A stretch of DNA of 64,000 nt, taken from NCBI RefSeq assembly GCF_013266755.1, contig NZ_JABRWJ010000006.1, positions 496,001 to 560,000 of the forward strand. Direction: 5' to 3'. The notes beneath the pieces were generated by a model that worked only from the letters and a program-made list of their open reading frames with translations, made no database searches and was not told the origin of the DNA. The DNA is from Pseudaquabacterium terrae (GTDB taxonomy: Bacteria > Pseudomonadota > Gammaproteobacteria > Burkholderiales > Burkholderiaceae_C). The position numbers and the translations under genes were made by a program. Position 1 is the first letter of the stretch; each line of letters starts with the position of its first letter. Shown here in pieces: positions 47,999 to 55,399 of this stretch.

Positions 47999-49495
47999 AT
48001 GGATTCGTTTCATCGCTGGCTTGGCCTCGGCCCCGCGCTGCTGCTGGCCGTGCTGGCCATCGGCTTCGCGCTGCTGTACTGGCGCCAGCGGCGCGCCGGC
48101 CGGCGGCTCGCCGCTTCGCTCGAAGCGCTGACGACACGCCAGGGCGACTCGCGGCTGTTCGAGCTGCCGGGCCTGTTCACGCGGCCGCAGTACGACGAGG
48201 CGTTCGACGATGCGGTGCGGCGCTGTGACCGCGGCCTCGCGGAACTGACGCTGCTGTTCGTCGACATCGACAACTTCAACAGCGTCAACGACGCGCATGG
48301 TTACGACGGCGGTGACCAGGTGATCGCCGAGATCGCCGCCCGGCTGGTCGACTGCGCCGGTCCCGAGGCGGTGCTGACGCGGCTGGGTGCCGATGAATTC
48401 CTGGTGCTGCTGCCGGCCGGGCTGAACGTGGCCAGGGCGCTGGCCAAGGCGCTGGTCGCCCAGCTGGCGCGGCCGGTGAAGCTCGGGCTGCGCCGGCAGG
48501 CGACGCTGAGCGGCTCGATCGGCATCGCCGCCTATCCGGAGCACGGCTCGCGCGCGCGCCTGGTCGGCCACGCCAGCACCGCGATGCGCTGCGTCAAGCT
48601 GGCCGGTGGTGGCGACTACATGGTGTTCGAGCCGCGCATGGCGGTCGATACGCGCGACCAGGCCGAGCTGCTGCACGATCTGCGGCATGCCGTCGCCAAC
48701 GGCGAGCTCGAGCTGTTCTACCAGCCGAAGATCGATGCCCAGAGCCTGCAGATCACCGCCGCCGAAGCCTTGCTGCGCTGGCACCACCCGCTGCGCGGGC
48801 TGGTCAGCCCGGGGATCTTCATTCCGATCGCCGAGCGCTACGGCCTGATCGGCACCATCGGCCAGTGGGTCATCGACGAAGCCAGCCGGCAGGCCGCCGA
48901 CTGGCGCGCGAGCGGGCTGCGCATGCGCGTGGCGATCAACATCTCGGCCTACCAGATGCGCCAGCACGACCTGGTCGACCGCCTGGTCGCCGCACTGAAG
49001 ACCCACGGCCTGCAGCCGGGCCGCTTCACCTGCGAGATCACCGAATCGCTGGCGATGGAGGACACCCGCGTCACGCAGCGCAGCTTCGAGCGCATGCGCC
49101 GCGCCGGCCTGCACGTGTCGATCGACGACTTCGGCGTCGGCCAGGCCAGCCTGTCCTACCTGCGCCGGCTGCCGGCGGCCGAGCTGAAGATCGACGGCTC
49201 GTTCGTGCGCGACCTGGCCACCAGCGCCGACGCGCGCTCGATCGTCGACGCCGTGGTCAAGCTCGCCCATGCGCTGCAGCTGCGTGTCGTCGCCGAAGGC
49301 GTCGAAACCGAGGCCCAGCGCGACCTGCTGGTGACCATGGGCTGCGACGAGCTGCAGGGCTTCCTGTTCGCGCGGCCGATGACGGCGCGTGCGCTGACGC
49401 TGTGGGCGCTCGACGACGGCCAGCGCACGACGATGAAGCACGACTTCCGCCCCTCGCTGTTCCAGGAGACGGTGCCGGCGCCGCAAAGCGATTGA
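47999..49495 (+). CDS. Membrane-anchored GGDEF-EAL protein
   Basis: A 498-residue protein with one N-terminal helix ([19 protein letters not shown]), a GGDEF domain whose signature reads GADEF (130-134), and an EAL domain with intact EALLRW (E256), [29 protein letters not shown] and AEGVETEAQ motifs. Phosphodiesterase activity is therefore likely; cyclase activity is doubtful because of the glycine-to-alanine change. There is no sensor domain beyond the short N-terminal part. It follows the AAA gene by 84 bases and ends 22 bases before metH part 1. Confidence 0.9.
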
Positions 49496-49517
49496 GCGCC
49501 TTTCTACAATCGACGCC

Positions 49518-50582
49518 ATGAATGCCGCCGCCCGCCCGCCGATCGCCTACACCCGCGCCGCCGACCTGCCCGCCCTGCTCGCGCAGCGCATCGTCATCAT
49601 CGACGGCGCGATGGGCACGATGATCCAGCGCTACAAGCTCGGCGAGGCCGACTTCCGCGGCAGCCGCTTCACCGATCATCCGAAGGACCTGAAGGGCAAC
49701 AACGACCTGCTGCCGCTGACCCGGCCGGACGTGCTGCACGAAATCCACTCGCAGTACCTCGCGGCCGGCGCCGACATCATCGAGACCAACACCTTCGGCG
49801 CGACCTCGATCGCGCAGGAAGACTACGGCCTGGCCGAGGTCGCCCGCGAGCTCAACGTCGAGGCCGCGCGCATCGCCCGCTCGGCCGCCGACGCCTTCAC
49901 GACGCCCGAGCGCCGCCGCTATGTCGCAGGCGCCTTGGGGCCGACGCCGCGCACCGCGAGCATCAGCCCCGACGTGAACGACCCTGGCGCGCGCAACGTC
50001 AGCTTCGAGCAGCTGCGCGCCGCGTACCACGAGCAGGCCAGCGGGCTGCTCGAAGGCGGCGCCGACCTGTTCCTGGTCGAGACGATCTTCGACACGCTGA
50101 ATGCCAAGGCCGCGATCTTCGCGCTCGACGAGCTGATGGAGGCCACCGGCGAACGCCTGCCGGTGATCGTCTCGGGCACCGTCACCGATGCGTCGGGCCG
50201 CATCCTGTCGGGGCAGACCGTGTCGGCGTTCTGGAACTCGGTGCGCCACGCGCGGCCGATCGCCATCGGCCTGAACTGCGCCTTGGGCGCGACACTGATG
50301 CGGCCGTACATCGAGGAGCTGGCCAAGGTTGCCGGCGACACGTACATCAGCTGTTATCCGAACGCCGGCCTGCCGAACCCGATGAGCGACACCGGCTTCG
50401 ACGAAACGCCGGAGATCACCGGCGCGATGCTGGCCGAGTTCGCGCAGGCGGGATTCCTGAACATCGTCGGCGGCTGCTGCGGCACGACGCCGGACCACAT
50501 CGCCGAGATCGCCCGGCGAGTCGGCGAGTACCGCCCGCGCACGCGGCACGATCCCCTCTTCAGCGGATTGCTCGCCGCCTGA
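49518..50582 (+). CDS. metH: Methionine synthase part 1 (homocysteine-binding domain of split MetH)
   Basis: A 354-residue protein equal to the N-terminal homocysteine S-methyltransferase domain of cobalamin-dependent MetH. It begins with [15 protein letters not shown]; the three zinc-binding cysteines are C254 (LNCALG) and C320-C321 (GGCCGTTP). In many Burkholderiales MetH is encoded by two genes, and this protein acts with the second part at 52658 to make methionine from homocysteine and methyltetrahydrofolate. Here the halves are about 2.1 kb apart with two unrelated genes between them, and only the second has the SAH riboswitch. Confidence 0.95.
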
Positions 50583-50649
50583 TCTGCGATCCAGGGGTCG
50601 CGGCCGTGCGGCTGGCGTGATAGAACGTTCGCTCTTCGAGGGAGCGGAC

Positions 50650-51930
50650 ATGAACAACAGCACACGGGTCCTGATTGGGGCCACGATGATCGCGGCACTG
50701 GCCGCTTGCGGCGGCGGGTCGGGTGGCTCGCAGCCGACCGACAGAGCGCCGACCGACAGCACGACGACGGCGCCGGCGGCAGCCACGACGACCCTGGCTG
50801 CCTACGTCGCGACCCGCGGCGATCGGGTCAGCGTGCAGGGCTTCCCGGCGCCGACCGCCGAGGAGCGTGCCTGGCTCTTCGACGACAGCCGCGAGCGGGC
50901 GGTGGCCCAGGTGGCGGCGGCGCTGCCGACGTCGGGCAACGCCATCGCGCTTCCGCCGCTGCAGGCCTCCTTCATCCAGACGGTCGCTGCCGCGGCGCGC
51001 GGTGAAACGCTGGCCGAATTGCTGCGTGCCTACCCGGCGACGGCGCCCGGCTTCTATTCGTCGATGCTGCGCACGCAAGGCGTGCAACGCCAACTGCTCT
51101 CTGCGCCCGGCGCGCGTTTCCTCCCCGGCTTCCTCGAAGCTACCGATTCGTACGGTCCGCTGCCGCCGCTCGCGGCCTGGGTCGGCAAGGAAACCGGCGA
51201 CCTCGGCTTCAGCGGGGATGTTCGGCTGGTGGTGACGGACGAGTTCCGAGAGCGCGTCACCATGCCGAAGGGCGAGTTGTTCGACGGCATTTTCGCCGAC
51301 GAGGCCCAGGTACGACAACTCGTGCCGATGACGCGTTTTACCGTCGGTGTCGTGCAGCACAGGGGCAGCGACTTCGTCGCACAGGCGCTGACGCTCGGCG
51401 GTCGCCTGCTGGTGAAGATCGAACCCACCGCGGCCAGCACCCTGGCCTTCTCCCGTCAGCGGCTGTCACCCGCCTTGACAGAGGTCGTGCAGATCGTCAC
51501 CGCGCCAACGCTGGTGGCGCTGCCGCAAGGCGCCATGGTGTTGCCGCGTGCGGGGCTCGCCCCCGATGGCTTGGAAGTGGCTCCGGCCGCGCTGTCACGC
51601 GCTTTCGATGAGTTGCGGGCTGACTTGCGAGGTCTCGATGGTGGAGGCACGTATCTGCGCGCTTACAGCGGGCCGAGCGCGCTGCGGATCGACGACAGCG
51701 TGATGGAGGTGGGTGGCTACCACGACTTGGCCTTCGTTCACAGTCAACGCAACCCCTACAGCCCCGGCACGTATGCCGGCGGCACTACCTTGTGGTCATG
51801 GGGCGTGGAGTGCCCCGCAGGCGCCGCCGACCTGCGCAGCTTCTTCCTCGTTTTGCTGGACGCGGACAAGCGCGTTCTCGCGTTGGCGGCGGTCGGTGCG
51901 CTCGAGGCAGAGTACTGCTGGGATCAATGA
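50650..51930 (+). CDS. Divergent serpin-fold lipoprotein
   Basis: A 426-residue protein with a lipoprotein signal (IGATMIAALAAC) and a Thr/Ala-rich linker. Several segments follow the order of serpins: NAIALPPLQASFIQTVAAAA-RGET (helix B region), LAAWVGKETGDLG (INxWVexxT), DVRLVVTDEF, LVPMTRF, RADLRGLDGGGTYLRAY (the ADLSGI segment before the hinge) and DLRSFFLVLLDADKRVLALA (the FLFLIRD end). The stretch where the EEGTEAAA hinge and reactive loop should be reads DSVMEVGGYHDLAFVHSQRN, so inhibition is doubtful. ATG 50650 has a GGGAGCG site. It lies between the two metH genes and overlaps the convergent OmpA-like gene by seven bases. Confidence 0.7.
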   Translation: MNNSTRVLIGATMIAALAACGGGSGGSQPTDRAPTDSTTTAPAAATTTLAAYVATRGDRVSVQGFPAPTAEERAWLFDDSRERAVAQVAAALPTSGNAIALPPLQASFIQTVAAAARGETLAELLRAYPATAPGFYSSMLRTQGVQRQLLSAPGARFLPGFLEATDSYGPLPPLAAWVGKETGDLGFSGDVRLVVTDEFRERVTMPKGELFDGIFADEAQVRQLVPMTRFTVGVVQHRGSDFVAQALTLGGRLLVKIEPTAASTLAFSRQRLSPALTEVVQIVTAPTLVALPQGAMVLPRAGLAPDGLEVAPAALSRAFDELRADLRGLDGGGTYLRAYSGPSALRIDDSVMEVGGYHDLAFVHSQRNPYSPGTYAGGTTLWSWGVECPAGAADLRSFFLVLLDADKRVLALAAVGALEAEYCWDQ

Positions 51931-52469
51931 CCCGACCGCTGCTGCATCGCCGGAGCGCTGTCCTCCAAGCGCCCGATGCCCGCCGGCGCCAGGCTCAGGC
52001 GCAGCGCAACGCCATCTGCTGACCCGGCCGTTTGCGCCGCGACGCGGTGTGCCGCCACCCCACGCGACACCAGGTGCGCGCGCGCGGCCTGTGCCCGCTC
52101 GCTGCCCGCGGCGCCGATCGTCAGGCGGCTCGTGGGCTGCCGCTTCAGGCTCTGGCCGAGCTTGTCGAGCACGACCTTCAATGCGGGCTTCGGCTTGGCC
52201 GACGCGCCGTCGAAGGCGTGCACCATCGGCACCAGCAGGTTGACGCCGCCGTCGGCATCGCTGCTGATCACCACCGGCGTGCCCTCGAAGAGTTGCGACA
52301 GCCAGCGCTGCTCGGCCGCCAGTGGCGCGGGCTTCGGCGCCGGCGCGGCCGGCTTCGGCGCTTCGGCGCGCGGCGCGCCTGGGCTGGTCGACGGCGCTGG
52401 CGCCGGGGCGCGGCTGGCACAGCCGGCCACCAGCAAGACGAGTCCGCAGGTCAGGAGTCTTCTTTTCAT
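51924..52469 (-). CDS. OmpA-like lipoprotein
   Basis: A 181-residue protein with a lipobox (LLTCGLVLLVAGCAS), a Pro/Ala linker (PAPAPSTSPGAPRAEAPKPA) and a C-terminal domain resembling OmpA-type peptidoglycan-binding or YiaD-like modules (LDKLGQSLKRQPTSRLTIGAAGSERAQAARAHLVSRGV). The typical OmpA arginine/aspartate signature is only partly kept, so peptidoglycan binding is not certain. It is probably an outer-membrane lipoprotein. It is divergent from metH part 2 and convergent with the serpin-like gene. Confidence 0.7.
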   Translation of the reverse strand: MKRRLLTCGLVLLVAGCASRAPAPAPSTSPGAPRAEAPKPAAPAPKPAPLAAEQRWLSQLFEGTPVVISSDADGGVNLLVPMVHAFDGASAKPKPALKVVLDKLGQSLKRQPTSRLTIGAAGSERAQAARAHLVSRGVAAHRVAAQTAGSADGVALRLSLAPAGIGRLEDSAPAMQQRSGH

Positions 52470-52545
52470 GAGCCGATTGGAGCAAGTGGCGTGCTGTATC
52501 TGCGTACAGCCATGTAAGCGCAGTATGCAGCCGTGAAGCAGCTCT

Positions 52546-52551
52546 TAGAAT
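52546..52551 (+). promoter_or_regulatory. Putative -10 box for metH part 2
   Basis: TAGAAT at 52546-52551 would place a transcription start near 52558, exactly at the 5' end of the riboswitch. The -35 region is not a good match to the sigma-70 consensus. The position relative to the RNA element is the main support. Confidence 0.4.
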
Positions 52552-52558
52552 CCGCCCT

Positions 52559-52624
52559 CCCGAGGAGCGTTGCAACGGCCCTCCGCCGCCAGGCTCGGGA
52601 CTTTCCCGCAGCAACGGCGCTCAC
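52559..52624 (+). promoter_or_regulatory. S-adenosylhomocysteine (SAH) riboswitch
   Basis: The segment matches the SAH riboswitch consensus: CCCGAGGAGCGTTGCAACG at the 5' end, CCAGGCTCGGG in the middle and GCAACGGCGCTCAC at the 3' end. Helix P1 forms between 52559-52564 (CCCGAG) and 52594-52599 (CTCGGG). The pseudoknot helix forms between GAGCG (52565-52569) and CGCTC (52618-52622). Known members turn on expression when SAH accumulates and lie before ahcY, metF or metH. It ends 33 bases before ATG 52658 of metH part 2, so it probably acts on that gene. Confidence 0.9.
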
Positions 52625-52657
52625 CCAAGCCAAGCAGTCGCCCTGGGTGAAGCGTTC

Positions 52658-55396
<2,739 letters not shown>

Positions 55397-55399
<3 letters not shown>

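Follow-up and report, generated by a model that had tools for sequence, protein, structure and literature searches.

Some prokaryotic serpins depart from the classical picture of the inhibitor. Passages of the literature class part of them as membrane anchored (PMC8233489), and the miropin of Tannerella forsythia is cited as most likely surface-exposed in an excerpt of a paper whose own prediction is cytoplasmic (PMC4604654). The Streptomyces group U serpins have a changed breach and shutter and are, in the relevant part of the same source as the anchoring classes, thought possibly non-inhibitory (PMC8233489). Whether prokaryotic serpins have any non-inhibitory function is still unknown, according to a passage of a further paper (PMC10090351). 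In this context, we analysed a 64,000-nucleotide stretch of the Pseudaquabacterium terrae genome (the window), where a gene for a serpin-like lipoprotein lies between the parts of a split metH gene.

For comparison, we assembled 19 serpins, recognised via PF00079 or by similarity. A fragment (L047) and a second record of one gene (L048, the same gene as L046) were left out, as were all but 8 of 95 plasmid records with a serpin match. Scored by a simple pattern, 7 of the 19 have a lipobox-like start, five of the seven belonging to Pseudomonadota, with one near-identical pair among the five. Because of this count and the published classification (PMC8233489), we consider a lipid anchor ordinary in prokaryotic serpins, and the view in a preliminary description of the locus that a membrane-anchored serpin is unusual in a Gram-negative bacterium is not supported. 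The lipidated prokaryotic serpins (L042, L043, L044, L084 and L086) share with the window protein a serpin domain after a lipobox-like start, but keep the E(K)GTEAAA-type hinge. The Streptomyces group U serpins, together with L087 and L083 (the irregular hinges among the 19, less so in L083), are likewise prokaryotic serpins off the inhibitory consensus; they differ in having clear similarity to other serpins, and the hinge is retained in many of those from Streptomyces. In the window family, by comparison, there is no PF00079 detection, and hinge and shutter are changed together.

The comparison set also yielded observations of separate interest. The annotated serpin at 176-1447 of a Tsukamurella plasmid (L087) has a lipobox-like start and the irregular hinge GTATDTATA, and is a candidate non-inhibitory bacterial serpin. 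In three of three rhizobial plasmid regions (L088, L089 and L090), a serpin gene lies between genes for a trypsin-like serine protease and a serine/threonine protein kinase, which suggests that the serpin and the trypsin-like protease form a protease-inhibitor pair. A viral IMG/VR contig (L079, 1501-2598) carries a serpin domain inside a 1366-codon stop-to-stop frame; a serpin scan of viral contigs with A4 gave none among 30 stretches.

An accessory gene between the halves of metH

The features of the locus are collected in Table 1. A purine-rich GAGGGAG, picked out by eye, lies at 50638-50644 upstream of the ATG at 50650, and a promoter and terminator scan of 49300-52700 returned 0 and 0. The translated frame holds the landmarks previously quoted for it, AAWVGKETGDLG, LVPMTRF, RADLRGLDGGGTYLRAY and FFLVLLDADKRVLAL, in that order, and the lipobox reported with them is also there. 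A signal peptide with lipobox and cysteine (motif judged by eye) is present in all three members of the family, as LAA-C20, LAA-C20 and LGA-C38.

Table 1. Features of the serpin-like gene and its neighbours (window coordinates)
Feature	Position	Strand	Basis
Neighbour, MetH homocysteine S-methyltransferase half	49518..50582	+	PF02574, E 1.1e-96
Serpin-like lipoprotein gene, 426 aa plus stop (coding part 50650-51927)	50650..51930	+	ORF, translation, homologues L001/L003 and L004, serpin profile match
Lipobox LAAC (Cys20), then Gly21	50698..50709	+	sequence; Cys and next two Gly invariant in 3/3 members
Equivalent of serpin SPxS/helix B (N97...LPPLQASF...AARGETLAEL)	50938..51021	+	alignment with serpins
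ADLRGLDGGGTYL, most conserved stretch of the family; first part aligns with serpin ADFSGI	51619..51657	+	family and serpin alignments
Reactive-loop equivalent Q366-S397, with displaced GTYAGGTT at 373-380	51745..51840	+	alignments; register uncertain
Cys388 to Cys423 around s4B/s5B-like SFFLVLLDADKRVLALAAVG	51811..51918	+	Cys spacing 35 in 3/3
Neighbour, small lipoprotein, weakly OmpA-like	51924..52469	-	PF00691 below cut-off, E 0.093
Neighbour, MetH pterin, B12 and activation half	52658..55399	+	PF00809, PF02607, PF02310, PF02965

One relative, 55% identical, occupies the same position in Aquabacterium humicola (L001 and L003, the same place). The third and most distant member (L004), 36% identical, lies at a different location in another genome of the genus (G015). 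Among 21 genomes of the genus, a protein query matched four, three of them full-length and all three with an open frame, and a profile of the mature proteins gave three full-length and three weak partial matches. At family level, the protein query matched 15 of 399 genomes (2 full-length, 13 within residues 3-119) and the mature profile 26 of 299 with E of 0.1 or lower (two full-length, 24 weak); nine of these weak matches were read as frames and none resembled a relative. G015 lies outside the family sample. Across 399 genomes of the order, a full profile matched 21, full-length only in the window's own genome and partially in 20. A search of genome contigs returned 1 relative among 108 stretches; the family was found in none of 38 stretches of viral contigs and had no match on plasmids. 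Scoring in the large homologue searches was limited to some 4 to 6 candidates for each genome, and distant members may therefore have been missed.

The serpin-like protein changes fast, yet is under purifying selection. It is only 55% identical to its A. humicola counterpart, whereas the adjacent metH half is 93% identical, and dN/dS between the two copies is about 0.36 (0.373/1.025; Nei-Gojobori method, own script). The gene is real, and the copies in A. humicola and G015 and this dN/dS value indicate that it is maintained.

The preliminary description had the gene between two metH genes. Sequences of metH do flank it, the upstream one ending 67 bases before its start, but domain matches show that they are halves of one split metH, and two separate genes are rejected. 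The small lipoprotein gene also sits between the halves; it converges on the serpin-like gene, whose 3' end it overlaps by 7 bases. The first metH half occurs in 17 of the 21 genus genomes, and the second was recognised in 10 of these 17 loci within the fetched stretches. The serpin-like gene is an accessory gene, because only 2 of the 17 metH loci carry it (the window and G003) and the G015 copy is elsewhere, where its neighbours encode PspA/IM30, DUF2170 and a radical-SAM/TRAM protein. A six-frame check for a serpin-like remnant near the first metH half in relatives (L097-L111) gave 4.6 bits at best, and we saw no link of the gene to methionine synthesis. The G015 metH spacer contains the small lipoprotein gene only.

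The spacer itself (window 50583-52657, loci L096-L111) varies within the genus. It is short in some genomes and about 850-900 bases in several, and the small lipoprotein gene accompanies the first metH half at 4 of the 17 genus loci, window included.

Evidence for serpin ancestry

Standard library and sequence searches do not call the protein a serpin. In Pfam, the PF00079 gathering score was not reached and there was no row for the window protein, L003 or L004; no PF00079 match was found anywhere in the window's own genome, and only 1 of 399 sampled genomes of the order has one. NCBIfam names no serpin for the window protein (its two weak matches, at E 0.024 and 0.087, are to non-serpin entries), and PDB sequence searches gave no serpin chain. 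With HMMER at maximum sensitivity and a profile of the 19 serpins, only L004 rose above shuffles (6.2 bits, E 0.22); the window protein and L003 were absent from the best 12 matches, which included several shuffles. Of the 49 columns at least 75% conserved in the serpins, the window protein shares the serpin residue in only 15, by our own count on the L-INS-i alignment.

The case for serpin ancestry comes from profile-profile comparison. Aligned by hhalign with the 19 serpins, the three-member profile gave a local match of Prob 93.7 (E 2e-7, for a one-on-one comparison) over 212 columns, 55-277 against 83-344, which ends before the loop, and a global match of Prob 96.2 over 328 collinear columns. 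The family scored 59.7 locally and 51.1 globally, against 21.3 and 15.0 for the best of 150 column shuffles and 15.8 and 1.4 for the reversed family profile. Within the window, the stop-to-stop frame of the gene ranks first among 123 ORFs of at least 250 aa in its serpin match (local 26.4, next 22.3; global 17.5, next 10.3), and among the matches listed it is the only one with a long collinear alignment.

This signal is carried largely by L004, which alone gave Prob 94.5 locally and 88.6 globally (score 61.4 vs 21.8 for the best of 200 shuffles). The mature window protein alone gave a local Prob of 4.7 and a global alignment of 7 columns only, and the A. humicola protein alone was at noise level (Prob 0.98). 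The match also depends on the serpin set chosen. Against 6 serpins, the family stays in register at Prob 2.3 (25.3, with 24.5 as the maximum of 200 column shuffles). Leaving out the two most diverged serpins gave Prob 77.5 and leaving out four rhizobial-type serpins 93.8; those four as the only target gave 0.3, and five viral/archaeal serpins as the only target gave 0.9 for the family and 80.4 for L004 alone. A single-sequence AlphaFold2 model had a pLDDT of 34 and matched nothing in the PDB at E 0.001, and a model helped by serpin rows resembles serpins, which is circular.

The reading first made from the letters is thus partly supported. The controlled match of the three-member profile speaks for its serpin assignment, although no curated library match backs it and the window sequence by itself would not convince. 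On the sequence comparisons, we regard homology to serpins as highly probable, although not certain.

Changed hinge and shutter, and a conserved cysteine pair

The family has in common with the serpin superfamily (PF00079) the motif order N..P, the GAxGxT-like AARGET, the INxWV-helix Trp, VPM, LP, xAFxxxADxxG and the s4B Phe, and of these the INxWV-helix Trp, LP and s4B Phe occur in every member. It differs in lying below Pfam detection, in its changed hinge and shutter serines and in two extra invariant cysteines; in the window protein, the breach Trp is changed too. This Trp is present only in L004 and missing from the window and A. humicola proteins. The SPxS shutter serines have a role in inhibitory serpins. 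Both are replaced by Leu in every member of the family, with the Pro kept, while at least 18 of the 19 serpins have Ser.

The canonical hinge (P17-P9 ExGTEAAAA; EEGTEAAAAT) is also absent from all three members, so that the alteration first noted in the window protein extends to its homologues in A. humicola and G015. The earlier statement that a small-residue hinge is lacking is correct for the canonical register, but GTYAGGTT, starting at G373, lies about four residues further on. In one MAFFT alignment (A6), roughly four inserted residues bring this segment opposite GTEAAAAT; three other MAFFT modes align different residues with the hinge. The residues at this place are DTSSGGSV in A. humicola and PTYYETGE, which are not small, in L004. 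Judged from these substitutions, classical inhibition is unlikely.

Conservation is concentrated elsewhere. All three members agree at 14 of the 20 residues of the block 321-340, the most conserved one. The stretch ADLRGLDGGGTYL falls within this block and is identical in three proteins with as little as 36% overall identity, and the loop is less conserved. Each member has exactly two non-lipid cysteines, at 388/423, 388/423 and 419/454. A disulfide between Cys388 and Cys423 is likely because the protein is predicted to be exported. To our knowledge, a cysteine pair of this kind is absent from classical serpins.

Competing readings and what they would mean

We favour, with somewhat better than even confidence, a very diverged serpin-superfamily lipoprotein that is lipid-anchored in the envelope and most likely acts as a static serpin scaffold presenting binding surfaces. 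The protein would be exported and then lipidated at Cys20 by the established pathway. In E. coli, the residue after the lipobox Cys indicates the membrane (the +2 rule), and the Gly at this position suggests an outer-membrane location. The protein would retain the core of a serpin and a loop roughly as long as in serpins, and the scaffold is taken to be static because the residues that enable loop insertion into sheet A appear to be lost. A disulfide joining Cys388 to Cys423 across this s4B/s5B-like hairpin would pin the loop at its C-terminal side, and the stapled loop, the conserved ADLRGLDGGGTYL patch or both may bind a protein or ligand in the envelope.

A serpin fold that still inhibits proteases is unlikely. 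Here, the insertion of about four residues would shift the hinge, so that G373-T-Y-A-G-G-T-T enters sheet A and the protein protects envelope proteins. Alignment A6 is consistent with this, as it places GTYAGGTTL opposite GTEAAAATA, and so are DTSSGGSVL at the same place in A. humicola and a loop that, counted by eye, is of about serpin length. The reading fits poorly with PTYYETGEVM in L004, whose residues are not small, with the disagreement of the other three MAFFT modes over the hinge residues, and with the loss of the shutter serines throughout and of the breach Trp in two members.

Two further readings are both improbable. The gene may be serpin-derived but weakly constrained, heading for loss and without an important function. 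Its full-length presence in 3 of 21 genus genomes and in none of the other genomes sampled would agree with that, as would its low identity to A. humicola beside the well-conserved metH half and its changed shutter and hinge residues; yet the frame is open in every copy, dN/dS is about 0.36, and the lipobox, the cysteine spacing of 35 and ADLRGLDGGGTYL are preserved across 36% identity. Slightly harder still to credit is an unrelated envelope lipoprotein whose profile likeness to serpins is coincidental. Coincidence would poorly explain collinearity across 212 to 328 columns with scores well beyond those of the shuffles and the reversed profile, or a window frame that outscores the other 122 window ORFs. 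On the other side stand the missing curated library and PDB sequence matches, the weak scores of two of three members alone, the variation with the serpin set, and a single-sequence AlphaFold2 model too poor to give an independent confident structure.

With the static scaffold as the preferred reading, the window protein is best described as a serpin-fold lipoprotein of the envelope that is rare, evolves fast and probably does not inhibit proteases. The sequence data show the gene, the lipobox, the three-member family, the serpin profile match, the altered hinge and shutter residues and the cysteine pair; from these we infer the detail of the fold, the disulfide, the outer-membrane location, the lack of protease inhibition and the binding role. 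The family seems new in combining divergence below PF00079 detection with a hinge and shutter changed in all its members and a conserved cysteine pair; we found no description of such a serpin-like family in the literature searched, with most subscription journals outside it. Tentatively, the family could represent a bacterial serpin lineage that lost moving-loop inhibition entirely and turned into a binding scaffold in the envelope, held by a lipid anchor and stapled by a disulfide. Such a lineage would parallel, in prokaryotes, the animal serpins that do not inhibit.

If true, the serpin superfamily would extend beyond what current profiles detect, which would suggest unrecognised serpins in an order where PF00079 is found in so few of the sampled genomes (1 of 399). 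It would also bear on whether prokaryotic serpins have non-inhibitory functions, a question raised in a passage of PMC10090351.
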